Part shown: piece after piece, positions 716 through 45,800 of the stretch
Numbering within the stretch: position 1 is the first letter of the stretch
How the letters are laid out: the number at the start of each line of letters is the position of its first letter
IMG/VR virus record: IMGVR_UViG_3300032291_001492
Span: 1-64,000 of that record
From: a virus
Reading direction: 5' to 3' (one strand)
DNA length: 64,000 bases
Made by a program: the position numbers and the translations under genes
Notes under the pieces: generated by a model
Seen by the model: only the letters and a program-made list of their open reading frames with translations
The model's database searches: none
What the model was told of the DNA's origin: nothing

Positions 716-2788
716 TTATACAGCATACGCTGTAATCAACATTTTGTATGTGATTGGATTAGAAGAACTTGGGGTTACCTTGAGTTCTAATGCCGGTGGT
801 ATTATTATATTACCTGCATTATAATCCACTTCAAAGTTACCCACACCACCATTTACAAACAGACTTGCGTATTCAGTAAACTGCACTGTTCCGTTGTAAT
901 ATAATGAACTAATTTTACATGATTGTCTACTTGGGCCAGCTGGCTCAGTAGCAATAATTTCAAATTCAACTCCAGACAAATCTGCTACAGGAATTGAATA
1001 TAATACTTGTGCAGGTGTTGTACTTGCAGTTGAAGCAAAATATACTAAACTAGTAGACCATTTGTATACTCCGGCTCCCATTTGGAAGCTGTTTGCAATT
1101 AAGTTACCACCTACTTGCAGTACCTTAGTGAAATCGTTATATGTTAAGAAAGCACTGCCGCCAAATACTCCATCATTATTAAATTGAACTTGTGTATTGG
1201 CTCCACCTGGAACGCCATTGCCACCGCCGCCGCTGGCTGACCAAGATAAGTTCCCGGATCCGTCTGTCTGTAATACATATCCATTTAATCCACCTGAAAT
1301 TTTTAAGTTAGCAACATTACCTAAATTAACGTTAGTTGCACCGGTGAAGTTTGCAGTTGCATTACTTTTAATAGATGGTACAGATAATATATTAGTTGCA
1401 CTATCATATACAAATCCTGTATCTCCTCCAAAAGAACCTGAATCATTGTATTGAACCATTTGGTTAGTGCCGCCAGGACTGCCTGTACTTGCAATCCATG
1501 ATAAGTTACCAGACCCATCAGTTGATAAAATATAACCACCAGAGCCACCTGTCATTTTGACATTAGCAACATTACCTAAACTTAAATTACCACTACTAAA
1601 TGTTACATTAGGTATGCCACCAAATAATCCGGCATTGTTATATTGTAATTGTGTGTTAATACCACCGGGTGATCCATTACCACCGCCGCCACCTGCTGCC
1701 CAAGCTAAGTTTCCTGCTCCATCAGTTTGTAAATAATAACCACTAATACCGCCTGAAATTCTAACATTAGAAATTGGACCTAAATTAGCAGTGCCAACCA
1801 TAGTTAAACTAGTTAGATTTCCTACAGAAGTAATATTTGGTTGCGCCGCGGTTGTTACTGTTCCTGCAATTGCGGCAATAGCGGCAGTACCTGCTTGACT
1901 AACTGTGCCTACAACGTTAGAACCATTGATATTTGTTAATCCGTTACCATTACCTACAAAGTTTGTTGCAGTTAGTGTATTTGTTGATTTATTAAATGTA
2001 AACGAACTAGAACCATTCATTGTTCCAGCATCATTAAACTGAACTTGTGTGTTTGAGCCTGCAGCCGGGGAAGTAATAGTCACCCAAGATAAATTACCAG
2101 ATCCGTTTGTAGTTAAAAATTGACCACTGTTGCCACCAATAATTATTACATTACCTACATTACCTAAATTTGCAGAACTACCAACTTGTAATGTAGTAAT
2201 ACTAGCAAAACCAGTAGTGCTGATATTTCCTAGATAGGCGGTGCCTGATGTAGTTATATTATTACCAATTGATAGATTGGCAGCTACAATAATATTGTCT
2301 GAATTTAATGTATTAGTTACATCGTTATATGTAAATCCAGCATCACCGCCAAAATCACCATCACTATTGTATTGTACTTGACTGTTTGCCCCACCTGGAC
2401 TACCATTACCGGCATTTCCACCTGTTTGTGCTGTCCATGTTAAATTACCAGATCCATCTGTTTGTAAAACAAACCCATTTGTACCACCGGCAATTTTTAT
2501 GTTTGCTACATTTCCTAAACTTAAATTACCACTACTAAATGTTACATTAGGTATCCCACCTAATATACCGTTATTATTGTATTGTAATTGTGTGTTAGAG
2601 CCACCTGGGTTAGCGTTGAAGGGTTGACCATTAGCATAGAAAAAGCTATTGGCGTAAACTTTATTAGCGGTGACATTACCTGTTAAGTTTAAAAAATTTG
2701 AAACTACATTACCATTTCCATCTATGACGGTGACGGAAGGTATTCCTACCGAATAACCAGTTAATGTATTGAATAATTCTGATGCCAT
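716..2788 (-). CDS. Tail fibre / virion adhesin built of repeated fibre modules
   Basis: 690 residues. It starts MASELFNTLTGYSVG and contains six copies of a fibre module. Each copy has a GSNTQLQYNN- or NTQVQFNDAG-type opening, then G-G, then an F(S/T)YN..TNTL-type strand. Several are separated by a glycine-rich turn and a (G)GxxGxxLQTDGSGNLSW motif. This module is common in fibres of T4-like marine phages. The last ~115 residues (from about YKWSTSLVYFAS) are non-repetitive and predicted beta-rich, so they are the likely receptor-binding tip. There is no catalytic motif and no intramolecular chaperone triad that I can recognise. The gene is upstream of, and co-oriented with, a second fibre-like gene. 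The start at 2788 fits the GATAAATA box 30 bases upstream. Assignment as a fibre is firm as a class; the T4 counterpart (34-37 or 12) cannot be stated. Confidence 0.8.
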   Translation of the reverse strand: MASELFNTLTGYSVGIPSVTVIDGNGNVVSNFLNLTGNVTANKVYANSFFYANGQPFNANPGGSNTQLQYNNNGILGGIPNVTFSSGNLSLGNVANIKIAGGTNGFVLQTDGSGNLTWTAQTGGNAGNGSPGGANSQVQYNSDGDFGGDAGFTYNDVTNTLNSDNIIVAANLSIGNNITTSGTAYLGNISTTGFASITTLQVGSSANLGNVGNVIIIGGNSGQFLTTNGSGNLSWVTITSPAAGSNTQVQFNDAGTMNGSSSFTFNKSTNTLTATNFVGNGNGLTNINGSNVVGTVSQAGTAAIAAIAGTVTTAAQPNITSVGNLTSLTMVGTANLGPISNVRISGGISGYYLQTDGAGNLAWAAGGGGGNGSPGGINTQLQYNNAGLFGGIPNVTFSSGNLSLGNVANVKMTGGSGGYILSTDGSGNLSWIASTGSPGGTNQMVQYNDSGSFGGDTGFVYDSATNILSVPSIKSNATANFTGATNVNLGNVANLKISGGLNGYVLQTDGSGNLSWSASGGGGNGVPGGANTQVQFNNDGVFGGSAFLTYNDFTKVLQVGGNLIANSFQMGAGVYKWSTSLVYFASTASTTPAQVLYSIPVADLSGVEFEIIATEPAGPSRQSCKISSLYYNGTVQFTEYASLFVNGGVGNFEVDYNAGNIIIPPALELKVTPSSSNPITYKMLITAYAV

Positions 2789-2817
2789 ATTTTATCCCGA
2801 ACTTTATTTTTATAATA

Positions 2818-2825
2818 TATTTATC
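2818..2825 (-). promoter_or_regulatory. Candidate late promoter (GATAAATA)
   Basis: GATAAATA on the minus strand, 29 bases before the ATG of the 690-aa fibre gene. The spacing leaves room for a transcription start and a short leader. Confidence 0.5.
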
Positions 2826-2886
2826 AAAATATTGTATTTTAACCCATAGAAAAAAGCACCCATAAAATCTTTTTTCTAAATACAAT

Positions 2887-3252
2887 ATGTTAACTAGACA
2901 ACCATCAAGACCATTATGTATACATTGCAATGTATCATTAGCAAAGCCTAATGGAATTAGTAAGCATGGATTTAAAAAGTGGCACAAGTATTGTGTTGAT
3001 TGTGCTAAAGGTGCATACAATACTACGTATGGTTATCTATTACATAAGAAAAATAAATGTGAGAAGTGTGGCTTTATTCCAGAAGACAACTGCCAATTAG
3101 ATATTATCTATAAAGACAATAACAAAAAGAACAAAGATAAAAATAATTTAAAGACATTGTGTGCAAATTGCAACAGGTTACACACAAAGAAAATGAAAGA
3201 AAAGAAAAAATCTATTTTAGATATAACAGTAGATACTGACCTTACTCTTTAA
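2887..3252 (+). CDS. HNH-endonuclease-like zinc protein, catalytic motif degenerate
   Basis: 121 residues. The N-terminal CxxC pair (CIHC) and a later CVDC pair form one probable zinc knuckle. The second half has CEKCGF, then QLDIIYKDNNKKN, then NLKTLCANCNRLHTKK. That is the skeleton of a phage HNH domain (CxxC, LDxHH.., NN..NL..LCxxCH). However, the two histidines expected after LD are Ile-Tyr, and the histidine after the second CxxC is Asn (CANCNR). The fold-defining cysteines are kept while the metal/catalytic histidines appear lost, so it may be a DNA-binding relic or a non-cleaving protein. It is a lone plus-strand gene between minus-strand genes and overlaps the convergent DUF6165-like gene by four bases. 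No clear ribosome binding site precedes the ATG. It may represent a free-standing homing-type nuclease that has decayed. Confidence 0.6.
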   Translation: MLTRQPSRPLCIHCNVSLAKPNGISKHGFKKWHKYCVDCAKGAYNTTYGYLLHKKNKCEKCGFIPEDNCQLDIIYKDNNKKNKDKNNLKTLCANCNRLHTKKMKEKKKSILDITVDTDLTL

Positions 3253-3614
3253 TAACTTTTTTCTTCAATTATAGTAGAACCCATCAATACATTTATTTTC
3301 TTTTTAAGTTCTGCACGATAGTCGTTTTTTATATATACTTGACGAGCCAATTTGATAAACTCATCATCAAATCTTTGCTCTTGTTCATGTTTACGTTTGC
3401 TATCTTCAATATCCCATAAATCCTGATTTACCGTTAGTAACTGTGTGTAGTACACATTTAATTCTAAAGGTGCTTCTAAATTATCTGCTATAGCACGTAA
3501 TTGAATTAATTCTTTAATCACGTTTTCGATTTTTAATGGATCAGAAATTCTAGCCACTTTAATTGTCAAGATTGTTATCTTGTCAAATAATTCTCCGATG
3601 CTTATTGGTGCCAT
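3249..3614 (-). CDS. DUF6165-like protein
   Basis: About 121 residues from the ATG at 3614 (an in-frame ATG at 3623 would add three). The opening MAPISIGELFDKITIL and the helical charged body (KLARQVYIKNDYRAELKKKIN) match my recollection of the DUF6165 family, small proteins of unknown function in phages and in bacterial polysaccharide loci. It lies 12 bases after the radical SAM stop and is probably co-transcribed with it from the TATAAATA box at 4652. Its 3' end overlaps the convergent HNH-like gene by four bases. There are no transmembrane segments and no cysteine motifs. Function unknown. Confidence 0.6.
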   Translation of the reverse strand: MAPISIGELFDKITILTIKVARISDPLKIENVIKELIQLRAIADNLEAPLELNVYYTQLLTVNQDLWDIEDSKRKHEQEQRFDDEFIKLARQVYIKNDYRAELKKKINVLMGSTIIEEKSY

Positions 3615-3626
3615 GATTATCATAAA

Positions 3627-4628
3627 TTAGTTTACCCCACACCTATCATTACACATTAATAGTCGACCGGCTTCAAATGTAGGAATTGACCAAGTTTTTT
3701 CAATTTTGTTAAACCAGGATATGCAGTGTTCTAAACTGTGTTCTAATGCATTATTTTCTTGCACAAAATCTCGAAACTGTACATTTGCAGCCTCATGGTA
3801 ATGTCCGTGTCCATAAGTTTTTGGGCTAAACCCTAGCCAACAACAAGGAGATACATCTCCTATACTAGAAATATAAATTGATTTTTGTTTTTTAGCAAGG
3901 CAATCAATATTTTTTATAGGTTTAAATGGCGCAATGTCTTTTAATAGCATTTTACGCTGAGTGCGTAATTTCCAAAGCCTATCAAAATCAATTATAACAG
4001 GACTACCTATTGTGTGAGATAGTTGCTTGTTTTTGTCAAATACCGGTGCTTGATTTCGTTCGCTATTTATTAGTTCAAATTTTTTAAATCCTAACTGTTG
4101 ACTTAGTGTTTGTGCAGTAGATTGCTGATGCCGATTGTGGTCAAAATCAATCATTTTCCATACAGCATTACCTCCGGCTGCAATAAAAATTTTAGCATTC
4201 TGAATCACAGTTGAGTACAAAGTATTTTGTCTATATAGACTATGTGTATCTTCTAGTCCGTCGATACAAAAAATTATCTCAACTCCTAATGTAGCTAGAG
4301 ATTGCCAATATTCTTTGTTTCTTGCACCTGCATTAGTACTGATTATGATTTTTAAATTACTTGAACAGGATCTAAAGTACTCAACAATTTCTACTGTTTC
4401 GGGATTCATTACAGCATCTCCAAAATTTCCATTTATATATATGTCATCAAGTTGCTGTACAAACTCACGTTGAAATATTTTCATTGCCTCTTCTAATGTC
4501 ATGTTATGTTCAACATATCCATCATTAAACTCATAGCCGTAAAAGTTTCTAGGACAGAGCGGGCAAGCCGCATTGCACAAACTAGAGATTTCTAAATGTA
4601 CGTTACGTATGTCAGCAAAATTATACAT
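3627..4628 (-). CDS. Radical SAM protein with SPASM-like C-terminal cysteines
   Basis: 333 residues from the ATG at 4628. An upstream in-frame start at 4718 is rejected because it would lie beyond the gp23 terminator and the TATAAATA box. The radical SAM motif CNAACPLC (Cys18, Cys22, Cys25) binds the 4Fe-4S cluster that cleaves S-adenosylmethionine. INGNFGD occupies the usual GGEP position but lacks the Gly-Gly-Glu. Near the C-terminus, cysteines at CLAKK, SPCCW, HCISW and MCNDRCG suggest a SPASM-type auxiliary cluster domain, which in known families acts on peptide or protein substrates. No precursor peptide is seen beside it; the neighbour is the DUF6165-like gene. It is only distantly similar to the radical SAM array at the right edge, where the auxiliary cysteines come first. 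The substrate is unknown. Confidence 0.75.
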   Translation of the reverse strand: MYNFADIRNVHLEISSLCNAACPLCPRNFYGYEFNDGYVEHNMTLEEAMKIFQREFVQQLDDIYINGNFGDAVMNPETVEIVEYFRSCSSNLKIIISTNAGARNKEYWQSLATLGVEIIFCIDGLEDTHSLYRQNTLYSTVIQNAKIFIAAGGNAVWKMIDFDHNRHQQSTAQTLSQQLGFKKFELINSERNQAPVFDKNKQLSHTIGSPVIIDFDRLWKLRTQRKMLLKDIAPFKPIKNIDCLAKKQKSIYISSIGDVSPCCWLGFSPKTYGHGHYHEAANVQFRDFVQENNALEHSLEHCISWFNKIEKTWSIPTFEAGRLLMCNDRCGVN

Positions 4629-10734: not shown

Positions 10735-13700
10735 TTAAACCCTTGAAGATTTTAATAACTTGTCAGAAATATTATTACCAGTTTCTAATGCAGAAAGCAT
10801 TGCATCAAATTTATCTTCCATCATTCCAAACAACTCTTCCATAATTGGCATCAAGTTATCAGATTGTTTACTAGATGGTGTTGCAGTAGTTGTTGAAGAT
10901 GCTGTGGGAAGGTCTTTCTTTACAACATCCTGCATTGATGCAGCAAAGTCAGGTATCTTGAAGTCAGGAATAACCAGCTCTTTTCCATGTAATGTTACCG
11001 GATACCCGGACATTGGGCCACTAAACACTCCACCGTTCATAGCTTGTTGAACCGGAGGACCTTTTGTGAACGTTCCCATATTTGAAGCATGTGCTGTTAC
11101 TTTGCCTAATAATTCATTCTTTAAATAGTCACTACTTTTTCTAACATCTTTTCCTGCAACTTGACTTGTTGCTAATAAATTAGCATCAGCTTCTGACAAG
11201 GGGCCACTACCTAGACCCATATTAGCTTGCATTCTATTCTTAGATTTTTCCATGTACCAAGCAACAACTTGAGATGCAATTTTAGGGTCCATTACAGCAT
11301 CAGGGTTCTTAACTAACGTATCATTACCAAAGATAGCCTGTGATGCAGCCGCATAATTATTTTTACCTGTTAATTGAATAAATCCACGACCTCTATACTT
11401 CCAACCATCACCGGCTTCTAAATTGCCCATACTTCTACCAATAGCAGTTCCTGATCCGTACATGAATTCACCCATGTTTTCTGGATTACTCTTGATCTTA
11501 TTCAATTCTTCATCTGATTTACCTGCGGCACGTGAACCAAAAATTTGACGAATGCGTTCATTACTTGTCCTAGAATAATCAAGGTTTTCTGAGATGTTTT
11601 TACCACCTGTTTCCTTCATTACATTACCCAATGTAGCTTTAATGTAATTCTCATCGGTAATACCACGTTTTTTCAGTGATTCGACAATTGAAGCAAGATT
11701 AGATTTAACGTTCTGATCTTGGGGTGGTGCTACTGTGGCTCCACCGGTAGATCCACCACCGGTAGATCCACCACCACCGGTAGATCCGCCGCCTGATCCG
11801 CCACCACTAGCGGCACCGCCGGTCACACCTGTACGCATTACTCTACTCAATGCATCAACACTTTCTTTTAATGCATTTAATGATTCTACTAAAGTCTTAG
11901 TAGATTTTGTAGATTTTTCTTCAGAATCTAACTGTTCGTCTACTATTCGTTTGGCTTCAGGACTTTCAAATGCTTTTCCAGCAACACTCCCTACTGCTTC
12001 GCCTACTTTCTCTCCGCCTTTACTACCTAGCCAACCACCAATCGCCGCGCCAATTGCAGTGCCAACTACAGGGAAAATAGCAGTTCCAATTGCAGCGCCT
12101 GCTATTGCGCCGCCTACACCTCCTGCCGCTTGTCCAGTGCCTTTGCCAATAGCCGAACCCTTTTCTGTGGCAGTGTTAGCATTTTTTAGTCCTTCAGCGG
12201 CTGTCATTACTCCAGTACCAACTGATAATACACCTGCTAAAGGTCCTGCAAATTTACTTAATACTGATAACGCACCTGCTTTTGCACCACTTGCCGCGGC
12301 TGTTGATGCGGCACCTGTTGATGCGGCACCTGTTGCGGCTGTTGATGCGGCACCTGTTGCGGCTGTTGATGCGGCACCTGTTGCGGCTGTTGATGCGGCT
12401 GTTGATGCGGCACCTGCAAGTCTTCCTTCAGCTTGTACTAAGCTACTAAATCCGCCTACTTGTCGTTTGGCTTCGGATGCTGGCATACCTTGTGCCCGTA
12501 ATGCATCGTATTTTGCTTTTTGATCAGTGGACATTCCAGTTGCAGGTTTTGGTCCTCCACTAGTTCCGCCAGCAGTGCCGGCACCGCCAGCGCCACCAAC
12601 AGTTGGTTTTGCACCACGCCCGCGCCGATCCATCAATCCACCTAATGCTTTTGCACCTGCTAACCCTGCAAGTGCGGCAGCGGCTGCTAATGCCGCACCC
12701 ATCAATGCTGTTGCGGCAATAGTTGTAGCGTTAAATCCATTCAACAAAGGATTTACAGATGCCAATAAATCATCTAATGCACCCTTTGCTTTTATCTCAG
12801 CTTCAGTTAATTTGTTTCTTGCAATTTGCGCAGGATCTTGTTCTGTCTTAGCACCAGTTTTTCCATCTTTTGGTGAACCTATATCTGCTGCCGCTTTTTG
12901 ACCGGCCTTATCTATGTCTTTACCAACTTTACTCATAGCAAAGCCAACACCGTCACCAGCAAGACCAAAGGCTTTAGCAGTAGTTTCGCTATATGCACCT
13001 GCTTGGCTTAAACTCCTGATATTGTTTTGCACACCATTAGTATAATCTTTTTGGTACTCTAATGTTACATCTTGGCCATCTCTTAATTTTTGTAAGAATT
13101 TTGCCTGATCTATTCCTAAACGTTCTTGTACAGCGTTATCTTTGGTAACTGATTCAGTTGCAATTAATGATTGAACTGCTAAAACCTGTTGTTGGTCACC
13201 GGTTGCAATTGCAGCCTCTAAAAATTTCTGATTAGCCGCTACTTGGGCACGTAACTGTGCGGCTCTTGCTGTATCACCGGCTTTTTCTGCATCAGCCGCT
13301 TCTAATGATAATGATGATTGTTTAATTCTAAACTGAAATTGAGTTTGCTCAACTGCGATTTTGTCTTTTAATTCCTTAGTACTCTTACCAGTTAATGCAC
13401 TTAATTGTAATAAATTTTCCGTGTATTCTAGTGATGCTCGTTTTAATGATCCATCACGTTTCATTTGTTCAGTAATTACAACACCACTAGCTTGTAAATT
13501 TCTAACATATTCACCTTGATTTTCAGCTAATTGTTCTTGCGAAACACCCAGTCGTTGAAATGCTTGACGTTGTTCACTGGTAACAGAAGTTAACTTAGCA
13601 AACTCTGCTACACCCTCACCTGCTGTGGCACCTAAACTTACTACACCTTTACCAGCAACCCCAACGGCTTTAGTAAACACTGAAAGATTTTCAGAGGTAA

Positions 13701-14208
13701 GACCCATGCTCCTACCCATTCTACGAACTTCTTCAGCACCAAATACACCTGCACTACCCATTTCAGATAATTCATCTGTTGCCTTTAATACATTATCTGC
13801 TTGCTTTAATGCCGCTCCTGCGGCCATGGTAACACCTTTTACCAATGCACCAACTGCCATTCCTACTATACCAAAGTTTTTACTTAAATTCCAAACAGCA
13901 GTTCCAGCCGAATCTATTCCGGAACCAAATTTACCAAAACCTTTTTCTGCACTTAAAAACGCTTTTCCTAATGAAACTACTGATGCTGTTGCCGCTGTTT
14001 CAGCTTTGGTTAGATTTTGTGTCGCAATTTCTGATTGTTTTTTTGCTTGTATTTCTGATTGAACAGCCGGGCTTAAATCATCGTATGCTTTTTGATTTTG
14101 AGCAAGTGTAGAATTCAATCTAGATGAATTACCGGTAAGGTTAGACATGACCATTGCCAGTTCATTCATGGATTCAATCAGTTGTCGATTTATTTCGTCT
14201 TGTGTCAT
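10735..14208 (-). CDS. Tape-measure-like tail protein with GH19-type peptidoglycan hydrolase domain
   Basis: 1157 residues. The N-terminal ~500 are helical and Ala/Gln/Lys-rich with hydrophobic stretches (IVGMAVGALVKGVTMAAGAA), and a second hydrophobic Ala/Gly block follows (~residues 490-520, 660-730). This is the usual look of a tape measure. An Ala/Ser/Thr repeat region lies near residues 600-640, and a Gly/Ser/Thr linker near 800-825. Residues ~845-1045 form a lysozyme/chitinase-like GH19 domain: MKETGGKNISENLDYS gives the probable catalytic Glu, and GWKYRGRGFIQLTGKNNY is the hallmark motif. The C-terminus (GVFSGPMSGYPVTLHGKEL) also fits tail length proteins. In the cell it should set tail length and locally open peptidoglycan during injection. 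T4 gp29 is only 590 residues and has no hydrolase. The next plus-strand genes encode gp26- and gp51-like hub proteins. A CTAAATA box lies at 14262-14268 on this strand. Confidence 0.75.
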   Translation of the reverse strand: MTQDEINRQLIESMNELAMVMSNLTGNSSRLNSTLAQNQKAYDDLSPAVQSEIQAKKQSEIATQNLTKAETAATASVVSLGKAFLSAEKGFGKFGSGIDSAGTAVWNLSKNFGIVGMAVGALVKGVTMAAGAALKQADNVLKATDELSEMGSAGVFGAEEVRRMGRSMGLTSENLSVFTKAVGVAGKGVVSLGATAGEGVAEFAKLTSVTSEQRQAFQRLGVSQEQLAENQGEYVRNLQASGVVITEQMKRDGSLKRASLEYTENLLQLSALTGKSTKELKDKIAVEQTQFQFRIKQSSLSLEAADAEKAGDTARAAQLRAQVAANQKFLEAAIATGDQQQVLAVQSLIATESVTKDNAVQERLGIDQAKFLQKLRDGQDVTLEYQKDYTNGVQNNIRSLSQAGAYSETTAKAFGLAGDGVGFAMSKVGKDIDKAGQKAAADIGSPKDGKTGAKTEQDPAQIARNKLTEAEIKAKGALDDLLASVNPLLNGFNATTIAATALMGAALAAAAALAGLAGAKALGGLMDRRGRGAKPTVGGAGGAGTAGGTSGGPKPATGMSTDQKAKYDALRAQGMPASEAKRQVGGFSSLVQAEGRLAGAASTAASTAATGAASTAATGAASTAATGAASTGAASTAAASGAKAGALSVLSKFAGPLAGVLSVGTGVMTAAEGLKNANTATEKGSAIGKGTGQAAGGVGGAIAGAAIGTAIFPVVGTAIGAAIGGWLGSKGGEKVGEAVGSVAGKAFESPEAKRIVDEQLDSEEKSTKSTKTLVESLNALKESVDALSRVMRTGVTGGAASGGGSGGGSTGGGGSTGGGSTGGATVAPPQDQNVKSNLASIVESLKKRGITDENYIKATLGNVMKETGGKNISENLDYSRTSNERIRQIFGSRAAGKSDEELNKIKSNPENMGEFMYGSGTAIGRSMGNLEAGDGWKYRGRGFIQLTGKNNYAAASQAIFGNDTLVKNPDAVMDPKIASQVVAWYMEKSKNRMQANMGLGSGPLSEADANLLATSQVAGKDVRKSSDYLKNELLGKVTAHASNMGTFTKGPPVQQAMNGGVFSGPMSGYPVTLHGKELVIPDFKIPDFAASMQDVVKKDLPTASSTTTATPSSKQSDNLMPIMEELFGMMEDKFDAMLSALETGNNISDKLLKSSRV
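12298..12416 (-). repeat. 24-nt tandem coding repeat (Ala/Ser/Thr/Gly linker)
   Basis: Within the tape-measure gene a 24-nt unit (plus strand GATGCGGCACCTGTTGCGGC plus TGTT) recurs about four times with partial copies, encoding the peptide AATGAAST repeated. Near-identical units point to recent slippage. The peptide is a flexible linker between hydrophobic blocks. Confidence 0.8.
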
Positions 14209-14304
14209 AGTCTATACCAATAATTTTAGGGTGCTTTTGTTGCTAATAAATAGTTGCTATATATTTAGTATTGGGTGAAAACCCTTTTTTTATCAAGGAA
14301 AAAC

Positions 14305-15132
14305 ATGATCGCAACAAACAACCCATTAAAGCAGTATTTTCGTAGACCGGCAATTTATTTAAGATTGCCCAGCGGTGGAACGGGATATCCCCCTGGAGTA
14401 GTTGATTTACCTGAGTCAGGTGAATTGCCAATATATCCAATGACTGCAATTGATGAAATTACAAGTAAAACACCAGACGCATTGTTTAGTGGAACTGCAA
14501 TTGTAGAATTAATTAAAAGTTGTATACCTGATATAAAGGACCCTTGGTCTATCAATAGTACAGATTTAGATGCTATCTTAGTAGCTATTAAATCAGCAAC
14601 ACAAGGAAATGATTTTGAAATTGAATCATCTTGTACAGCTTGTGGTGAGGCTGCGACATATGGTGTTAATCTAATAGGAATCCTAACAGGATTGAAACCC
14701 GGAGACTATTCTAAAGAATTAGAAATTGGTGATTTGAAAATTAAATTCAGACCTTTATTGTATAAAGAAATGAATGATGCAGCCAAAACACAATTCGAGA
14801 TTCAAAAGATATTTTCTAACTTAGAAGAATTACCCGAAGAGGAAAGAAATACAAAAACTCAAGAAGCTATAAAAAGTATAACTGAGATTACCATGCAATT
14901 GTTATCAAAAACAATTGAGTATATTGAAACTCCTGGATCACAAGTTGCAGAAAAAGCATTTATTTTAGATTTTTTGCATAATTGCGATAAGAACTCATAT
15001 ATCACAATTCGTGACTATCACGCAAAACTAAAAGAACAAACTGATATTAAACCATTAAAAATTAAATGCATACACTGTCAAGTAGAATATGAACAACCAT
15101 TCATATTGAATGCATCTGATTTTTTCGGATGA
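14305..15132 (+). CDS. 26: Baseplate hub protein, T4 gp26-like
   Basis: 275 residues from the ATG at 14305, chosen because AAGGAA lies 6 bases upstream. A GTG at 14275 would place the start inside the promoter/leader region. The opening NPLKQYFRRPAIYLRLPSGG and the following PESGELPIYPMTAIDEI are strongly typical of the T4 baseplate protein family containing gp26 (T4 gp26 has 208 residues). CTACG and later IKCIHCQVEY form two CxxC pairs that could bind zinc. It is the first gene of a two-gene plus-strand unit and overlaps the gp51-like start by four bases. It sits beside the tape-measure gene as in T4, where 26, 51, 27, 29, 48 and 54 cluster. In other phages this family serves as a tail assembly chaperone. 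Confidence 0.8.
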   Translation: MIATNNPLKQYFRRPAIYLRLPSGGTGYPPGVVDLPESGELPIYPMTAIDEITSKTPDALFSGTAIVELIKSCIPDIKDPWSINSTDLDAILVAIKSATQGNDFEIESSCTACGEAATYGVNLIGILTGLKPGDYSKELEIGDLKIKFRPLLYKEMNDAAKTQFEIQKIFSNLEELPEEERNTKTQEAIKSITEITMQLLSKTIEYIETPGSQVAEKAFILDFLHNCDKNSYITIRDYHAKLKEQTDIKPLKIKCIHCQVEYEQPFILNASDFFG

Positions 15133-15356
15133 GGCTTCTACACCTTGACCACGAGGGTGTAAGTAAGCTGATAGACGGAATGGAAAAAGAATGTATTGAG
15201 TTAAAGAGAAGTGCTTTATCTTTAACTTGGTACATGCGTGGTGGCGTTTCATATGAAGATGTACTAAACATGTCCATTGAGGAAAGAAAACTCATCAATG
15301 AACTAATAGAAGAAAATCTTGAAACAACTAAGAAAACGCAATTGCCATTCTTTTAA
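15129..15356 (+). CDS. Small hub-assembly protein, probably gp51-like
   Basis: 75 residues (MRLLHLDHEGVSKLIDGMEK..), helical and charged, with ALSLTWYMRGGVSYEDVLNM in the middle. It overlaps the gp26-like gene by four bases (ATGA), implying translational coupling. In T4-like phages the small gene after 26 is 51, which helps hub assembly and is not in the mature tail. Sequence recognition alone is modest, so the symbol is left blank. It ends before the hairpin-rich gene-free region. Confidence 0.6.
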   Translation: MRLLHLDHEGVSKLIDGMEKECIELKRSALSLTWYMRGGVSYEDVLNMSIEERKLINELIEENLETTKKTQLPFF

Positions 15357-15863
15357 TACGTGGTATAATAGACGCAAATATTCATTTATACTTCATTCGG
15401 GTTCACTTATAAAGACAAACTTCGTTTGTCTAAGAACTCACTTCGTTCGTTCTTACTTTTACGGTTATATATTGTTTTTAAATTATATTTTATAAAAGAT
15501 ATATTGCCGCTTGGAGAGCCATGGTAGTGCTATTCAGCACTACCAGTGGTAAAGGGAATTTGCCATGCCCATCGTCCATTGTTATCTTTTCCCCGTTTAA
15601 TTGCCTATTTCTGACACTAAACGCTACCGGTTGCTCTGTAAAGTTTACGGGACTGTAGTGAAGCTAATGTTTTTAACAATTCTTCAGCAACGCACATTCT
15701 ATAACTTAAAGATAAAGTTGTTATAGACTTGTTGAAGGTTCGCTTTGTCGATTGCCTTCTCGGTATACCCATGAATATTACTATTCATGCTTGCTCCAGA
15801 TCCGTCAGCACAGCACAATCTGTACAAACTCAAGGAGGACTGTCAAACACAGTCAGCGAATTT
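15357..15863. ncRNA. Gene-free, hairpin-rich region; candidate structured RNA
   Basis: 507 bases without a credible gene between two convergent operons, less AT-rich by eye than its surroundings. Perfect or near-perfect stems are AGACAAAC/GTTTGTCT (15412-15430, TTC loop), AAGAAC/GTTCTT (15432-15453), TGGTAGTGCT/AGCACTACCA (15522-15545, ATTC loop), TGGTAAA/TTTGCCA (15547-15565), CTATAAC/GTTATAG (15699-15726), GAAGG/CCTTC (15734-15759), CATGAATA/TATTCATG (15770-15789, TTAC loop) and GACTGT/ACAGTC (15838-15854, followed by a T-run). The first two can serve as terminators for the gp51-like transcript. The dense set from 15500 to 15860 exceeds what termination needs. I could not match it to tRNA, tmRNA, RNase P RNA or a group I intron. 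The strand is not decided. Confidence 0.5.
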
Positions 15864-16430
15864 TTATATATTAATAGTTAAAAGTTTGTTTTCAATTGAT
15901 TTTGACGTGGTGTCTGTTGAGCCTGAATATGTTTTCAGAAGATTTGTATTGAAATTAAAGAAACTGTCAAATTCCATTATGATCCAATCACCGTGTTTAA
16001 CCGATGTGTAATACATGAAATTGTCAGTCACCCATGTTAGTTTGCTTTGTACTGCAACATAGCGACCCTTACGATTAAACTTCATAAAAAGAACGTTTAA
16101 ATCTTCGGGATCGGCTACATCCATGAGTTGTTCTAGCCAGCCATCAATTACTTTGCATTCACCTGAAAGTAATAAATGAAACGGAAAATCAGCATAGAAT
16201 TTACATTCAACATTTAATTTAGAAAAAGTTTCTCCGGGAACAATATCCCCTTTAAAACTTCTAATCTGCCCTTCATGTAAGAATTCCGTTCTTGATTGAT
16301 TTTTACCACCCACATAAGCACCTGATCCAGGAGCACGGATAAAACTTTCTCCGTACTTCTCTGATAGATATTTTGCGATTTCTCGTTCGAAACCTGAACC
16401 TTTTGCTTTTTGTGGACTTGGCATACTCAT
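15864..16430 (-). CDS. PD-(D/E)XK nuclease, Holliday-junction-resolvase-like
   Basis: 188 residues. The N-terminal GSGFEREIAKYL supplies the helix-1 glutamate (Glu15/Glu17), GDIV supplies Asp62, and VECKFY supplies Glu75-x-Lys77. That is the complete active site order of PD-(D/E)XK nucleases such as Hjc-type resolvases. The middle and C-terminal parts (LMDVADPEDLNVLFMKF, YYTSVKHGDWIIMEFDSFF) are beta-rich. It is the last gene of the gp55-gp47-gp46 operon, 26 bases after gp46, which fits a role in recombination or branched-DNA resolution (T4 uses the unrelated endonuclease VII, gp49). A restriction-like or RecB-type activity cannot be excluded. Confidence 0.72.
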   Translation of the reverse strand: MSMPSPQKAKGSGFEREIAKYLSEKYGESFIRAPGSGAYVGGKNQSRTEFLHEGQIRSFKGDIVPGETFSKLNVECKFYADFPFHLLLSGECKVIDGWLEQLMDVADPEDLNVLFMKFNRKGRYVAVQSKLTWVTDNFMYYTSVKHGDWIIMEFDSFFNFNTNLLKTYSGSTDTTSKSIENKLLTINI

Positions 16431-33803: not shown

Positions 33804-36800
33804 ATGGCAACAAGAATTAGAACGCTAAATTTTCTTCCAGAAATATTTAAAACACAAACCAATGCACAGTTCCTAGCGGCAACACTAGATCAACTTGTAG
33901 CACAACCTAACACAAAAAAGATACAAGGTTATGTGGGTAGTAGATTTGGTTATGGAGTAAATGCGACTGATTACTATGTTACTGAACCTACTAAAGTTAG
34001 AACAGATTATCAATTAGACCCCGGTGTCGTATTCTTAAAAGAAAATGATACTACTGCAAATGACTTTATTAGTTATCCTGGTATTGTTGATGGCATAAAA
34101 CTTGAAGGTGGATTAACTCAGGATAATAATAGACTATTCAACAGTCAATTTTATTCTTGGGACTCATTCACTAATCTAGATAAAATAATTAACTTTAATG
34201 AATATTACTGGTTACCAGATGGACCTGACCGTGTAATAATTTCTACGGATGTAGTGTTTAATTCGTCTAATTATCTAGTTCAAAGTTTATCAAATGAATA
34301 TTTAATTTCTTCTGAGTCTCAATCTGCAACAAGCAATCCTACGCTTACTTTATTGAGAGGCGGATCATATACTTTTAGTGTAAATCAAAATACACAATTT
34401 TGGATACAAGGTGAACCCGGTGTTACTGGATATAGCCCAACACAGCCCAACGTGCAAACACGTGACGTATTTGGAGTTACCAATAATGGTGCTGAGAATG
34501 GGGTTATTACATTTGAAGTTCCTGCACAGAATGCATTAAACGAATATAATTTTCCTCCTGGTCCTGCCGTAGGAGTTGTATCTTCATTACCGTTTAGTCA
34601 AATCAATGGTGCAAGAGTAACTGAAATAGGCGGAATTGATGGCGTTACAGCATTGGATGGTTTGACTGTGATGTTTTATAATACCGGCATAGCTGATGAA
34701 ATAGGTTATATTCAAAAATTTTACGATCAAACTTTATTTGATGAAGACGGTGGTGTTCCTTACAATGAAGCAACTGATTATCCCGGAACATCTGAATTTT
34801 ATAATAATTATGAAGGTGGTTTTTACAGCCCAGTAAATTCTAATTTTTACACAATTACTTTGTTAGGAGACCAATCTAATCCTATCATTCAACTTACCCC
34901 GGCAGGAATTATTCCTACTAATCAAACAATCACACCTACATTTGGTTCCGAGTGGGTAAACAGAAATTTTTATAGAAGTGTAGATGGTGCAATTGCTTTA
35001 GTTCCATATAACAGTGCAATACTAGACACACTATATTATCAAGACGGTACTAATCCAAATAAAGTTGGTATTATTAGATTAGCTAATAGCAATGTTTCTA
35101 ATTCATTAGATGTTGTTACTGAGATTTTAGGAAAGCCACAATATACTGCACCCAATGGAGTAGTATTTACAAATGGATTAAAAATTTTATTCCAGGGTAA
35201 TGTTACTCCTGAAATTTATAATAACACTGAATTCTATGTTGAAGGTGTAGGTACCGCAATTGAATTAATACCAGTTGCAGATTTAGTTAGCCCCGGTGCA
35301 TTTGCTGAAGGTTCTTATATTCCATTCGACACTACGCCATATGATGTGGGTAATTTTGATTCAAGTTTATATCTTTTAATAGATCCGGATTATATTACTA
35401 TTGCAAGAAATGCAATTAATAGAAATGCATGGTCACGTAGTAATAGATGGTTTCACATTGATGTTATAAATGCAACCGCAGATTATAATAATAATCCCGA
35501 ATTAGCCTCAGTTGCTACAATTTATAATAAAGCATCTCGTCCTATTATAGAATTTTATCCAAATCTTAGTTTATTCGATTCTGGTGTGATAGGTAAACAA
35601 CCTATCGATTTTATAGATTTTAGAACTACTGATGCATTTACATTGGTTGCAGGTCAACCTACATATTATCCTGATGTTGCAGGATATACAGGCTATTCTG
35701 CAACAATTGCACCAGTCTTAGCAGCCGTTACAAGTAAAACAGCAACTCAAACAGTTGGTTTGGTAAATCAAGTTATATTAAGTCCTGACACAGCAGGTAT
35801 ATACGTTAATGACACTATTGTGTTTGGTTTAGTAACTGCCGGAGGATTTGTTCCCGGCACTACGTACAAAATCGTAACTCCGGGAAACACTGATTTCACT
35901 GCAATAGGTGCATCTTCTAACGCGGTAGGTACTGTGTTTGTTGCAACAGGGGCAGGCTCAGGAACAGGTACTGCCGGAGATGTCGATTCAGAATTTGGTG
36001 GATTAATTGCCGGAGTAACTTATTATATTACTGAAATTTTTGGCAACAGAATAACAATCTCAACTGAAAAACAAGGTACAAGTGTTATCTTGTCATCTGT
36101 AGCGGGTTCTATGAGTACGTCAATATATCCTTACAGTACAACTATCACGGTTGCAACGGATGAGGTATTTGGATTATTTGAGGTTAACCAATATATTGCA
36201 GACTCAACAGGCATTCTTCCTGCAGTAACATTTATTAATGCAATAACAGAAGTCGGGTCTAATACAATCTTAACAGTTTCTTGGTATAACCAAGAAGTTA
36301 TCACCGGAACTTCAGTTGCATCTATTGTATCTGCTGATACTACTTTATCAAACTATGCTTTATTTGATGGGGCTAGAGTAGTTTTTGCTGCCGATACTAA
36401 TTTAAGTGTTAGAAACAAAATATATATTTCTCGTTTTTCTTCTATTGATGGTACAGGAACTCCTGTAATTACACTATCTGAAGCCTTTGATGGTCAAGTA
36501 TTACCGGATGAGCAGACTTCGGTTTATAGAGGATATAATTATAAAGGTAAAGATTTTTACTTTAATGTTGAAAATTGGCAACAAGCACAACAAAAAATTA
36601 CAATTAATCAGGCCCCTAAATTTGACATATATGATGAAAATGGTATAAGTTTTGGTGATAGCACAGTTTATATTGGTACGTCATTCACTGGTTGTTCACT
36701 ATTTCAATATGGCTTGGGAACAGGTATAAGTGATCCTGTTTTGGGTTTCCCATTACGTTATAGTACAGTAAATAATATAGGTGATGTTAGTTTTGATGTT

Positions 36801-39800
36801 ACACTAGATTCACAAACATTTAATTATGTTCAAGGAACAAATCCAATTACACAAAAAGTGAATACTGGATATGTATACAACTATACATCACGTACTAGCT
36901 TTGTAAGACAATTGGGTTGGCAAACAGCAGTATCACCTAGTGTACAATATCAAATTTTTGAATTTAATTGGTCAATCGATAATCCAATAACTAACTTTGT
37001 ATGTGATATAGCTCCGGTATCTTCTAGTTCAACTAATTGGCCAACTGTACAAGTTTATATAAATAATACCTATTTACCAGATACTGATTTTACAGTTTCA
37101 ACAACTGATAATACAACCACAGTTACTATATCTCAGATTGACGCTGTTAATACTGTAGTTCAGGTATTGATATTAAGTGATCAAGTAAGTTCTACTGCAT
37201 ATTATCAAATACCAATTAACTTAAGCAATAATCCTTTCAATGAAGATGTAACAACAGTTAATATTGGTGATATTCGCGGACAGTATCAAAGTATGTTCTT
37301 TAATAATCCAAATACTTTGGGACCAGTATTTGGACGTAACAACTTCCGTGATTTAGGAAATCTTGTTCCTTGGGGAAATAGAATTATTCAAAACAGTGCT
37401 TCACTTGTGTTGCCTGGAACATTCTTGCGTAAACAAAATCATAATTTGTTTAATTCTATTTTATACAACAGTAGACAATACATTACGTTTAAAAATTTAT
37501 TAATTGATACCGTAAACAATACAGATTATAATCGTATGTTGTCTCCGGCAGAAATGTTAGATGATGCAATGGATCAAATAACATCTACAAAAACAGACAG
37601 TCAACCATTCTTCTGGAGTGATATGTTGCCTTCTAAGGCACCTTATATTTCTAATACGTATTCTTTTGCAAACACACTGGATGTTAGTATATATCCTTTA
37701 AGCAGAATTTATGATTTTGACAAAGCAAATTATTATGGTGTATTGGTTTATCTAATTAGAGACAGTATCACCTCACAATTAATTTCTGGAGTGGATTATA
37801 CTGTAAGCACCAGTGCTCCTTCATTAACAGTTACATTAGATTTATTATCTAACGATCAAATTGTTATTAATGAATATAATCAAACATATGGTAGCTATGT
37901 ACCTAACACGCCTACTAAATTAGGTCTTTACCCTTCGACTATTCCAGCAGTTGTTGTCGATACTGCATATTTTGAACCTACATATTTTATAGTAGGACAT
38001 GATGGGTCATATAATAAATTGTTTGGATCATATGATAGTACTACAGGACAATTAGAAGATTTCAGAGATCAAGTATTACTTGAGTATGAGACACGTATAT
38101 ATAATAACTTAAAACTAAGCAACGTTATTCCAATTCAAACATATGAAGTAATCCCGGGTTTCTTTAGAGACCTTCAATATTCATATGATGAATTCTTAGA
38201 AGTTTATTCTGAATCTTTCTTGGATTGGGTTGGACAAAACAGAGTTGACTATAAAAGACAATTTTATAATCCAGTAAATGAATTTTCATATAATTATCGT
38301 AACAGCGGAAACAAAATAAACCGAGAAGCAATACAACAGGGATATTTTAGAGGATTGTATTTGTATTATTATGATACAACTACTCCTAATGTAACACCTT
38401 GGCAAATGATAGGTTATGCAGATCAGCCAACATGGTGGACTGAGCGTTATGGTCCTGCTCCATATACAAGTGATAACTTAATTTTATGGAACGATTTAGC
38501 AGAAGGTATAGATTGGAACAATGGTAATCCTGTAGTCATAACAGAATATATTCGTCCTGAGTTATTGCAAGTGTTACCAGTAGACAGTAACGGTGATTTA
38601 GTGTCACCTCTTACATCTATTGTTGGAAACTATAATAACAATATTTTCAAGCGTGATTGGAAAGTTGGCGATGTTGGGCCTACAGAATTTAGTTATCGTA
38701 GAAGCAGTACATGGCCATTTGATTTGATGCGTCTTTATGCATTAGCAAAGCCAGCTAATTTCTTTAACTTAGCAGTGGATGTTGACAATTACAAGTACAG
38801 TGCTGAGTTTGACCAATATTTGGTTAACAATAGAAGTCATTTACAATTAGGTGATATACCTATATATGGTTTAGGAACTCCTGCAACTAGCTATATTAAC
38901 TGGATAGTTGATTTTGAAAAACAAGTTGGCATTGATGCAACAACTGATATCACTACTTTATTAAAGAATTTAGATGTACGTTTGGTATATCGTGTAGCAG
39001 GGTTTTCAGATAAGAATTTGTTAAAGTTTTATGTTGAAAAAAGTTCAGCAAACACAACTAATAGTTCATTATTAATACCTGATGAAAGTTATTCTGTATT
39101 ATTATACGATAATCAACCATTTGATAGAATTGTATATTCTGGTGTAGTTATCCAAATAACAGAAAATGGTTATCAAGTATATGGAAATTCTCAAACTAAC
39201 GCATACTTTAAAATTTTATTGCCAAAAAATTCAGGATACAGTGAAACTATTGAAGTTGAAAATTTGTCAGTTAGGATAGCTGATCAATATACAGATAAAG
39301 TTGGTATTATTCCTTATGGTACAGAATTTTATAGCGTTCAGGAAGTTGCACAGTTTCTAAGTTCTTATGGAAAATACCTTGAAAACCAGGGTATGAAATT
39401 TGACCAGATAGAAAATGGTATTCCTGTTAATTGGGCTCAAATGATTGCTGAGTTTTTATATTGGTCGCAAATCGGTTGGGAAATTGGTAGTATAACTACA
39501 ATAAATCCTTCTGCCTCTACATTAGTAATTGACAAAGACAGTAGCGTTGTACAACCATTAACAGTAAGACAACGTAACTTTGTACTAAATCAAAACTTAT
39601 TTCCAATACAATCAATTGATTTAAATGTTGTTCGTCAAGATACTGCATTTACAGCACAACCATTGAATCAAGGTGATGCGATCAGTTATGGTCAATTTAA
39701 TATTAGTAACTTTGAACACGGTATCGTTTTTGACAACGTTACATTATTCAACGACATAATTTATAATTTAATTACTGGTTTACGTCAATATCGTGTATCA

Positions 39801-42800
39801 GTCCGCGGAGCTATAACAGCAGACTGGAATGGTACAGTTGATGCGGCAGGCTTCATTTTAAATCAAGACAACATCCAAGAATGGAATAGAGAAATTAAAT
39901 ATACCAAGGGTGAAATTGTTCTTTATAAAAATAGGTATTGGACATCTTTAACTATTGTACAACCTAAAGTATTATTTGACGAACGTGATTGGAAAGAAAC
40001 AAACTATAACGAAATTCAAAAAGGATTATTGCCTAACAGTCAAACTCGTTCTTTTGAAAGTACATTATACTATAACACTGATTCTGCAAACTTAGAAAAT
40101 GATGCAGATTTATTAAGTTTTAGTTTGATTGGATATCGTCCAAGAGATTACTTAGCACTTGCTGATTTAACAGATATCACGCAAGTAAACGTGTACAAAA
40201 ACATGATTAAAGAAAAAGGTACATTGAATGCAGCCAGTGCGTTCAAGGGTGCTAATTTACCACAAGGTGGAATTAATTATGACATTTATGAAAACTGGGC
40301 TATTAAATCAGGTGAGTTTGGTGGCGTATTAAACAACAACTTTATTGAATTTAACTTAAATCAAGCGTCATTGACAGGTAATCCAAGTATTGTTGGTTTA
40401 ACTAATGGAATATTTACTGATGGAGTACAACAAGAAGTACCGTTGTATTCTATATTCAATTATGGTAGACCAATAACTAGCCCTAATATATTACCTACTA
40501 TTTCAGCCTCTGAGCCTTCTTCATTATTCCCTACAGCAGGCTATGTCAATTACAATGACGTTAAAATGTCAAGTTATTATTATTCTGGTTTAGCTACTGC
40601 AACTAATGCTAGTGGAACAATAGTACCTATCAATGAATTTTATGTACGTGATTATGTTTGGTTAGCAAATTATCTATCTGACTGGAGAGTGTATACACCA
40701 GTCAGTTTAGGTTCAATCATTAATGCCAAGAATAATTTGAATGGTACCGTGACTATTACATTTAGCCAGGCTCATAATTTAACAAGATTTGAGTTATTTG
40801 GTATAACAAACTTTGATGTAGCAATTAATAACTATTATCTAGTGGCAGCAGTTGTTGATCCGGTTAGAGTCATTATTAATCTTTCATTGAGTCCTAGCAC
40901 ACTTAATATTGTGGGTCAAGGTATTGGTTTAAGAATGCAAAGTCAACGTGTAGCAACTGCACCTGAAATTGTTGATTTACCATTATTAAATAATGAATTC
41001 ACTAAATCAAAAGTTTGGGTTGATGAAAACAATGACGGCAGCTGGGCAGTATATCGTAAGAGTTTGAACTATCAGTATGATGCAGAAATCATTAGGGCTT
41101 CAAGCCAAACATTTGGTAGCGCAGTTGCATACACTACTCCTATGGGATACTTGATTGGTGATGCAGATGTTGGAGCAGTATACCGCTATACTTTTAATGC
41201 AGAAGCAAATACCTACACACTAGACCAAGCTATTACAAATAGCACTTCATTTGGTTCATATATATCTTATGCTGATGATTTATTTGTAATTTCAGAACCA
41301 ACAAGTGGTTCACCTAAAGTATATGTATATCAATTGATAACCACTACTCTAGTAGACAATCTGAATTCTTATCAAACTATTTCTGCACCAGGCGGAGTAA
41401 CTGACTGGGGTAGCACGACTGCTATTTCAGGTGATCAAAATTGGTTATACATCTCAGATACAGGTAATGCTAGAGTTTATGTATATCGCAAATCAACTCT
41501 TACCAACTTGTATGAAAGTGTAGGATATATTTCAGTAGCAGGTTTAACTTCTGCTGACAATTTTGGATTTTCGATTGCAACAGACTACTATGGTGATACT
41601 GTAGTAATTGGCGCGCCCGATCAAGACTATAATGTAAACACTGATAACTACGGATATGTGTACGTGTTTGCAAGAACAGTACAGAATTTTATAGCACCTT
41701 CTACCAGCCAATCATACATCCCGCAAACATTTGCATTGTCTTGGTCACCCGTCACAGTTACACAAACTGCAACTGCTACAGATAGTACCAACGATAGAAT
41801 CACGATAACAAGTTCTGCTGGTTTTAGTGTTAATGATCCTGTAGTATTCTCTGGTGATATTTTATCTTCTGGTGCAATTTCTCAAAATACTGTGTATTAT
41901 GTTTATGATAAACCAACAGCTACTACATTTAGAATTGCATCAACACGTAATGCAGCCGCACCAATTGAATTAACTACAGCTTCAGGCCCACCAAACATGA
42001 CTGTTACTGTACAAACAACACCGTTGTTTGTTAACATTAACGGAACATTGCTTGAAGATGATTCTTATGCAGTTATAGGGTCTACGTTATATGTTTACAG
42101 TGGATTAACCCCAACATTAAATGCAGGTGATATTCTTTCTGTTAGTGGATCAAATTTTGTATTGACACAAACATTAGACAACGGTCAGACACCACGTGTG
42201 GGTGTGCAGTTTGGACAAAGCGTAGATACAAATACATACGCTAATGAAATTTTAGTAGGTGCACCGTTTGAATTAAGTGCTGACAATTATGAAGGTGCTG
42301 TACATAGATTTACTAATGGTGGTGAAAAATATGGTTTTATTATTGGTACTGCTAATTGTAATATCACAACACCAAGAACAATTTTAATAAACGGATATCA
42401 AGTTATTTTACCAATAGGTAATGCAACAAATGCTTCAAACTTTATTAATGCAGCTAACATTCCCAATGTAAGTGCTACTTCTATTGACGGTAAATTAGTC
42501 ATTCAATTAGTTGACATTGCTATAGGATTTGCAGGTTCAAAACTTTCATTGACTGTGTTGAATTCAGCAACTCCTGCTGAAATGGGAATTAATATCTATA
42601 CAGCAACACAAACTATTGCTTGCCCACACTTAACTGGACCTACACAATTTGGAAGTGTAATTAAATTTAATGAGTTTGGTTCATTTATAGCTAGCGCCCC
42701 TACAGGAACTCGCTACTCAGCTACAACATTTGATTTTACAGATGATGAATTAGATAATGACACTGTATTTGATAACAATGCTACACAATGGATTGACACA

Positions 42801-45800
42801 TTTACCAATGCTGGTGCAGTATATATGTTTGATTATATTTCTGCATATAATGAAAGTTTAAATAATCCAGGTAAATTTGTATATGCTCAAAGTACAAATG
42901 CAGAAAATATTGATTACGGTTCGCAACCTTATTATGGTCAGGCATTAGATTTTAATGATAATAGAGTTACAGTAGGAACTCCTAATTTTAGACCAGGATA
43001 TGATAATGGTCAAGTAGTAGCATATACTAGTACTAGTACCGAACAAGACTGGGCAGTCTATAGAAGTTCTGCACCTATCGTTGATATAAATGGTATTGCA
43101 AACATTCAGTTATTCAGCGGATCATCTAATACAACATTAGACAACTTAGATTACTTTGATCCATTACAAGGAAAATTATTAGGGGCAATTAGAGAAAATA
43201 TTGATGTTATTTCTAATTCAGATCCTGCGGCATATAACTCTCCTAATAGCATACAGCGTGGTTTAGTATGGGGAGCAGACAAAGTAGGTCAATTATGGTT
43301 TGATACATCAAACACAAGATTTGTTAATTATCATCAAAATGATATTGTTTATAACAGCGCATATTGGGGTAGAATTTTCTCAGGCAGTGACGTTGCGGTA
43401 TATTCGTGGGTAGTAAGTAATGTTAGTCCACTCGACTATATTGGCCCAGGCATTCCGTATGATATTGATACCTATACTGTTAACGGAGTAATCAATGCAG
43501 AAGGCACTATTGTTCCATTATATTATTTCTGGGTAAGAAATACAAATATTGTATTTGAAAAGACTGGAAAAACATTAGCTGATTCTACATTAGAGGCATA
43601 CATATCTCAACCTCAAAACACCGGTATAAGTTATTTTGCACCATTACAACCTAACATTTTTGCTTTATACAATTCAGGTGATTATTTAAATGGTAATGAT
43701 ACTGTATTGCATATTGGTTATGCAACAGGAACTAACGATGATCCTATACACAATCAATATGAATTGATTCGTGCTGATTATGCAGATGATTTCTTGTCAG
43801 GTGTTCCGGGATCAGGTGCTGGATATCAAACACGTTCATCAACGGGTATAACAGAACCAATCTCATTGTATAATAGAATGTTAGATAGTATGTGCGGCGT
43901 AGATAATGCCGGTGCAGTAGTACCTAACCCATTCTTACCAAGAGCAGTTCAAACCGGTGTTCTTGCAAGACCGAGACAAAGTTTCTTCTATGATAGATAT
44001 GATGCATTAAAGAATTATTTACAATATGCCAATGAAGTATTAGCACAATTTCCTATAACAGAAATAAGAAATCCTTCATTCTTAAATACTACTGGTGCTA
44101 CGAACCCATCAACAGTAGACAATCCTGATTGGACAGGAAGTGTATTACCATTCTATGATACAACTAACTATTGGAGTTATATAAATTGGTGGGCGCCTGG
44201 TTATGATAATAATACAAAGTCTGCATTACAAGTTCCGATTTATGCTGATTTATCAACACTAACTGTTACACCTGGAACAATTGTTACTGTAGCAACAAAT
44301 GGCAATGGAAATTCAGAAACATATATCTATAATGTAGATGGTTCTTGGACCCGAATTGGATTAACAAACGGTACAATTGAATTTAGTAGTGCATTATGGG
44401 ATTACTCTACTTATAGACTAGGATTTGGTGACAATTTCTTTGATACTACACCGTATGATAACTACCCGTCAGAAGAAACTAGATATATTATTCGTTCTTT
44501 AAATGAAGAAATTTACAACAACGAATTGTTAATTTTCAGAAATAAAAGTTTAATTTTATTATTTGAATACATCCAGAGTGAAACATCTGAGAATCAAAAT
44601 TATTTGCCTTGGTTAAATAAAACATCATTCTTAGATGTATCACACACTATCCGTGAACTACGTCCAATTGAAGTATTCCAATCAGACAACGAGTTATTCT
44701 TGGAAGGTTACATGAATGAAGTTAAACCATATCATGTAGTTATTAAAGAATTCTTATTCAAATATACCGGCACTGATGTATACGAAGGTGACATCACTGA
44801 TTTTGATTTACCTGCACAGTACAACAGTTCAGTGCAACAGTTTATAACACCGGAATTAGTTTATTCTAATCCAAACGGTGATAATCAGTATTTACCAAAT
44901 GATCCTATATGGCAAACTGCCCCTTACATTCAATGGTTTAATAATCACGGAGTAAGTATTGTTGGTGAAAATGATTATCCTATATCAGTTTTAACATCAT
45001 ACATTGCGACAAATTCAAACTCATGTTATGTTGACAACGTAACCGGATTCCCTGTTACTGGAACAATTTTAATTGGCACTGAGTTGATTGGATATTCTAG
45101 TGTAAATCTATTAACTAACCAATTATTAGGATTAGCAAGAGGACTACAAAATACTGTAATACAACAACACATTCCGGGAGAAACAATCTTTATTGATTTG
45201 CCTGCTGTATTAGTGTTGAATGCAGGTAGATTGTATGACAATCCTCCTAAAATTACTGCAATAACTGATACTACTATATATCCTGAACCAACAGTACCCG
45301 CACAGTTTGAAGCTGTAATGGGCTTAGGTACTGTCATTGGTATAAATGTTATAAATCCTGGACAAGGATACGCAGTACTTCCTAAAATTGAAATTGATCC
45401 TGCTGTTGTTGTTGAAGTTAATAGTACTCAAGTAAATATTTCAAACAATACAATAGAACTTACTATACCTACATTACAAACAGGAGATTTGATTGTATAT
45501 CAGCCTGGTACAAACAGTACTGTAATAGGTGGATTAACTTCAGGACAAAAATATTATGTTAACTTGTTGGAAGTTTCTCCGGCTCCAATTATAGCACTTT
45601 ACGCTAGTTATATTGATGCTGATAGAGATCATAACCGTGTAGTTTTAACTAGCACTGGTTCAGGAGTTCAAAAATTAAACTTAGGTGCAGTTGCGTCTTG
45701 TATAACTAGCTCTGTACCAGTGAGAGAAAATAGTATTAATCTACGATTTGACAGAACTTCATATACTTCACAGGTAACTGAGTGGGCATCAGGTGATTTT

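Follow-up and report, generated by a model that had tools for sequence, protein, structure and literature searches.

A pseudoknotted RNA of T4-like phages, encoded between resolvase and baseplate-hub genes and remotely related to Polynucleobacter-1 RNA

What occupies the 507 nt (positions 15357–15863) that lie between two convergent operons of this phage? No other non-coding gap in the window comes near it in length, the next three measuring 167, 130 and 107 nt; the window is the 64,000-nucleotide stretch analyzed here and belongs to a virus record of 95,465 bases. Before it stands a plus-strand operon in which the T4 baseplate-hub gene is followed by a 75-aa ORF, the operon's last gene; beyond it a minus-strand operon encodes a gp55-like sigma factor, gp47, gp46 and a RusA-like/PDDEXK_15 resolvase. 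The MCP and portal encoded in the window are of T4 type and, because the records of relatives reach 524 kb, the window probably represents only part of the genome of a jumbo phage. Elsewhere in the window a 6463-aa ORF (33804–53195, plus strand) sits amid tail and structural genes, its only Pfam match being a sub-threshold FG-GAP repeat. A 1157-aa protein adjoining the portal gene (10735–14208, minus strand) shows, toward its C-terminus, a glycoside hydrolase 19 domain that scores below threshold, and is perhaps a tail-associated or lysis enzyme.

The original prediction, made from the sequence alone, drew attention to the many hairpins within ∼500 bases, to the absence of a gene and to the unusual length of the gap, and proposed a possible new structured RNA. 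The first three points hold. A protein-coding reading was rejected: stop-free runs are like those of shuffled sequences and most indels are not multiples of three. The minimum free energy z-score of the gap is −4.0 on the plus strand and −3.9 on the minus strand, none of 100 shuffles folds equally well, and the perfect inverted repeats are for the most part genuine helices.

Loci of relatives were gathered by searching with both neighboring genes. The arrangement and the gap are retained in 139 loci, with a gap of ∼500 nt in most and hub proteins that are mostly only ∼50–70% identical; among 80 distinct gap sequences the core (∼15503–15850) contains many columns of more than 90% identity. A profile search found the RNA in 261 loci, with 138 distinct near-complete copies (105 at less than 95% identity) and one strong match per genome, in records of up to 524 kb. 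The phages that keep it, well over a hundred, are related giant phages of water. Conservation of the stems in relatives, named beforehand as the test that could refute the idea, was evident in an alignment of 47 non-redundant, diverse sequences: 92.6% of cells are paired, compared with 79.9% in shuffled and 31–43% in slid control alignments. Changes on both sides of a pair account for 575 cells (170 in the shuffles) and affect 60 pairs, and a covariation scan that presupposes no structure concurs with this count.

The same pairs reveal the strand. At 93 pairs that both strands are predicted to form, 153 oppositions give G-U only if the minus strand is transcribed and 38 only if the plus strand is, and this asymmetry places the RNA on the minus strand. 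In the same count, A-C oppositions (G-U in a minus-strand RNA) are retained four times as often as G-T, which means that selection acts on RNA rather than DNA. The 5′-end lies near 15862, at the resolvase stop codon, and the 3′-end near 15503. The plus-strand hairpin and T-run of the original prediction are not a terminator: the terminator scan finds none, P2 of the minus-strand RNA accounts for the hairpin, and the T-run is what the other strand shows opposite the AAAAATT with which the RNA starts beside the stop codon. A probable bidirectional terminator is formed by twin hairpins between the operons: their G-U wobble counts are nearly equal on the two strands (12 vs 10), as expected if terminators are read from both sides. 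No T-run is called there by the terminator scan; clade B, described below, also has twin hairpins at the matching position.

Table 1. Features of the gap and its neighbors, with evidence.
Feature	Position	Strand	Evidence or remarks
T4-type baseplate hub protein, convergent neighbor	14275–15132	+	PF12322
75-aa ORF, final gene of convergent operon	15129–15356	+	adjoins hub gene in relatives
Twin hairpins between convergent operons, probable bidirectional terminator	15413–15455	.	covary; symmetric wobbles
RusA-like/PDDEXK_15 resolvase, directly 5′ of RNA	15864–16430	−	PF24608, E 1e-25; phrog_244
Structured RNA, ∼360 nt	15503–15862	−	conservation and covariation; ends inferred from closing helix P1
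P1 closing helix, 5′ strand, joins both RNA ends	15854–15861	−	85% of cells paired
P1 closing helix, 3′ strand	15503–15509	−	pairs with 15854–15861
P2 hairpin, sequence variable	15839–15853	−	5/5 pairs with double-sided changes
5′ domain, P3 enclosing P4	15794–15837	−	CCCA/UGGG in clade B
P3, CUCC/GGAG	15837–15834 with 15797–15794	−	99.5% paired; U-A in place of C-G in L212
P4, inside P3	15825–15823 with 15810–15808	−	
P5 hairpin, variable	15770–15789	−	8 pairs, all with double-sided changes
P6, 5′ strand (partner 15625–15629)	15761–15765	−	100% paired
P7/P7b hairpin, highly conserved	15734–15759	−	100% paired; G-C to C-G in 12/47
P8a/P8 long hairpin, loop makes PK1	15695–15731	−	10/10 pairs with double-sided changes; 97% paired
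PK1 pseudoknot, UUAUC with GAUAA (15582–15586)	15711–15715	−	5/5 pairs covary; 98% paired
P9, 5′ strand GUUGC (partner GCAAC, 15630–15634)	15687–15691	−	100% paired; 2 pairs with double-sided changes
P10 arm, length variable	15660–15685	−	4/4 pairs with double-sided changes; 73% paired
PK2 pseudoknot, UCCC with GGGA (15590–15593)	15649–15652	−	4/4 pairs covary; 97% paired
Core motif ACUUUACAGAGCAACCGGUAG	15625–15645	−	UACAGnnCAACCG-like in all three clades (A–C)
P11 hairpin, variable	15595–15622	−	8/8 counted pairs with double-sided changes
PK2 and PK1, 3′ strands	15582–15593	−	
P12 hairpin GGUAGUGC/GCACUACC, sequence nearly invariant	15519–15549	−	5/11 pairs invariant; 95.9% paired

Details of the fold are given in Table 1. 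A terminal helix and two pseudoknots accompany a nearly invariant multi-helix core, outside which lie variable hairpins: P2, P5, P10 and P11 vary freely in sequence while mostly retaining their pairing. PK1 was recovered by the covariation scan with no structure preset, and P9 covaries in clade B as well. As read from the alignment, the pseudoknotted core is fixed and the arms vary, which is the pattern of a large functional RNA. Positions near 15765, 15625 and 15642 could form a base triple or, equally, an extra pair as in clade B. The invariant CCUCCUU was considered as a mimic of the anti-Shine-Dalgarno sequence and rejected, because it is the pairing and not the motif that is conserved: L212 has CUCU/AGAG and the clade-B counterpart of P3 is CCCA/UGGG.

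How closely is the RNA tied to the resolvase? In clade A, to which the window belongs, the resolvase gene lies directly 5′ of the RNA and on the same strand in 250 of the 250 loci with enough sequence, mostly 0–60 nt away, and no conserved sigma-70 promoter precedes the RNA. The link is nonetheless not obligatory, as loci of more divergent resolvases show. Another gene intervenes in L380, G013 and G019; in G012/L464 a distance of ∼8 kb, containing ORFs of the opposite strand, separates the RNA from the resolvase. The G012 RNA begins with AAAAUUCGUUUGAUC, as does that of the window, and because it is still conserved away from the resolvase the RNA must be regarded as a module of its own. Ahead of it TTGCAA-17-TACATT was noted by eye; the promoter scan does not call it. 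A 562-aa protein encoded upstream of this decoupled RNA (7686–9374 of L464, plus strand) shows a weak, below-cut-off match to ART-PolyVal ADP-ribosyltransferase.

Among phages with 50–65% identical resolvases, many keep a 400–480-nt gap with no convincing gene and with shared motifs (clade B). Five loci (L374, L400, L392, L412 and L383) match the Rfam family RF01718, the Polynucleobacter-1 RNA, with E-values from 1e-18 to 8e-23. These RNAs lie directly 3′ of the resolvase on the same strand, that is, at the locus of the window RNA. RF01718 spans only their 5′ part; the 3′ part has the clade-B UACxGnnCAACCG core, which is also found in the window RNA. Three models, whose E-values are each rough (the calibrations were short and loci were chosen by resolvase), connect the clades: R1, the clade-A core, matches downstream of the resolvase in L375–377, L381, L405 and L409 (clade C; 1e-4 to 1e-9) and matches the G012 RNA at 1e-22; R2, the clade-B core, trained partly on RF01718-bearing RNAs, finds more members, including the RF01718-bearing L412 independently and clade C (L409 6e-5, L381 7e-4), and does not match clade A directly; R3, built from nothing but the clade-A 5′ domain, recovers clade B where it was expected (L397 3e-6, L415 9e-6, L421 6e-5 and others) and matches L464 at 1e-11. 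Because position is shared, homology across the clades is firm as a whole. Going by sequence and place, the window RNA is a remote homologue of those that bear RF01718; both occupy one locus, and their 5′ domains are exchangeable.

No convincing copy was found in phages with 38–43% identical resolvases (L287, L288 and L290), nor in the isolates PA5oct, Phosso (L288), Atu_ph07 and SCTP-2. In the isolated jumbo phage Phosso of Sinorhizobium (L288) a stretch of ∼1 kb without annotated genes (2760–3773) directly precedes the resolvase gene and is matched by none of the three models. No model tried found the RNA at the related resolvase loci L387, L449, L384 and L404. Gaps of more than 500 nt occur in L387 (after the resolvase) and L449, and could hold a further divergent RNA. 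Among 369 genomes from a single bacterial class RF01718 and R2 had no match, and there a positive control was likewise silent. Pattern matches in genome contigs were judged to be due to chance, the best (L159) lying inside a 417-aa ORF that resembles a TonB-type receptor, and blastn of clade-B RNAs against phage isolates returned only two records of one cyanophage protease gene (E 0.03).

Is the RNA then new, as originally proposed? The window clade appears undescribed, and here the word stands; the RNA as a whole has remote homologues in the RF01718-bearing RNAs of the same locus. In the literature searched, no description was found of the window clade, of the full-length fold or its pseudoknots, of the assignment to phages or of a connection with the resolvase locus, and almost nothing was found on RF01718 beyond a 2010 table in which Polynucleobacter-1, an orphan candidate RNA, is listed from Burkholderiales and from fresh water/estuary (Weinberg et al. 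2010, PMC2864571); the accession is printed in one further paper. It is quite possible, if somewhat short of probable, that T4-like jumbo phages carry a new class of large RNA, comprising three or more sequence clades built on a common pseudoknotted core, RF01718 being one interchangeable 5′ domain, and that this class has an activity so far unknown from phages.

What might such an RNA do? The account that we favor, and hold to be reasonably probable, is that of a ∼360-nt non-coding RNA of a T4-like jumbo phage, operon-final, processed and free-standing. We infer that it would be transcribed as the final element of the gp55–gp47–gp46–resolvase operon and released by termination at its 3′-end and processing at the resolvase stop codon, then to act in trans during infection as the scaffold of an RNA–protein or RNA-only complex. 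A scaffold is the most likely role by analogy with GOLLD, ROOL and OLE (PMC12286853).

A less likely reading, though one to be taken seriously, is that no free RNA exists and that a cis-acting 3′-UTR element protects or regulates the gp46/gp47/resolvase mRNA, by blocking exonucleases or through feedback by an encoded protein. The strict abutment seen in clade A, where the RNA starts at the stop codon and follows the resolvase in every testable locus, is also compatible with such an element; the RNA ends at the probable convergent terminator, and Polynucleobacter-1 is marked as probably cis-regulatory ('y' in the table of Weinberg et al. 2010, PMC2864571). However, a different gene is directly upstream in L380, G013, G019 and G012, with opposite-strand ORFs between in the last, and stability hairpins are far smaller and less conserved than this fold. 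A free RNA is favored because the RNA persists when the preceding gene changes.

Catalysis is improbable. The conserved core of a ribozyme might bring about its own 5′ release, for example, or act on another RNA, and the dense invariant unpaired residues near P6–P9, together with two pseudoknots, form an architecture common to large ribozymes; but Rfam gave no ribozyme or intron match, and neither a cleavage site nor exon-like flanks were recognized. Still harder to credit is a guide or cofactor RNA for the adjacent PDDEXK resolvase. Nuclease-associated RNAs exist in other systems, the omega RNA of IscB among them, and in clade A the two genes adjoin; yet the linkage is lost in some relatives, a variable guide segment was not seen, and phages with 38–43% identical resolvases have no convincing RNA. 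That the gap is a DNA element, its cruciforms serving the replication origin or recombination site also envisaged at the outset, can practically be dismissed: inverted repeats do adjoin a Holliday junction resolvase, but the pseudoknots and the fourfold retention of A-C over G-T point to selection at the level of RNA, and the proposed skew analysis found GC skew to track gene strand in the window, with no extremum at the gap.

An RNA of this size invites comparison with known RNAs. The covariance-model search proposed in the original prediction yielded no Rfam family for the window at gathering score, and the one match at E≤5 is due to chance; blastn matches to Staphylococcus phage genes (E=2) are chance too. 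The prediction could not fit the gap to a tRNA or tmRNA, and neither was found in the window (ARAGORN, Rfam), and no Rfam core of a group I or II intron or of RNase P RNA matches the window or its relatives. RF01718 itself gives no match in the window at the gathering cut-off and none at E≤5: it models 141 nt of 5′ domain, in which the window RNA differs (P2–P4), and the window RNA has its own P11/P12 end, unlike the RF01718-bearing RNAs. The L17 downstream element, a 3′-UTR RNA (PMC2864571), is likewise structured and directly follows a gene, but the window RNA has no Rfam match to it, is much larger and is separable from its gene. Rfam models of GOLLD, ROOL and OLE do not match the window RNA; in being large, many-helix and pseudoknotted, it is nevertheless like them (PMC12286853). 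GOLLD and ROOL are found in phages, often near tRNA islands (PMC12286853), whereas the window has no tRNA and its RNA, at ∼360 nt, is smaller. An orphan 141-nt fragment of 2010 becomes part of a ∼360–400-nt RNA for which there are now hundreds of sequences, a strand, a core with pseudoknots and a defined place, the gap that separates resolvase from baseplate hub in T4-like jumbo phages; with all this, its function becomes testable. There are few large phage RNAs, and the recently solved GOLLD and ROOL proved surprising.
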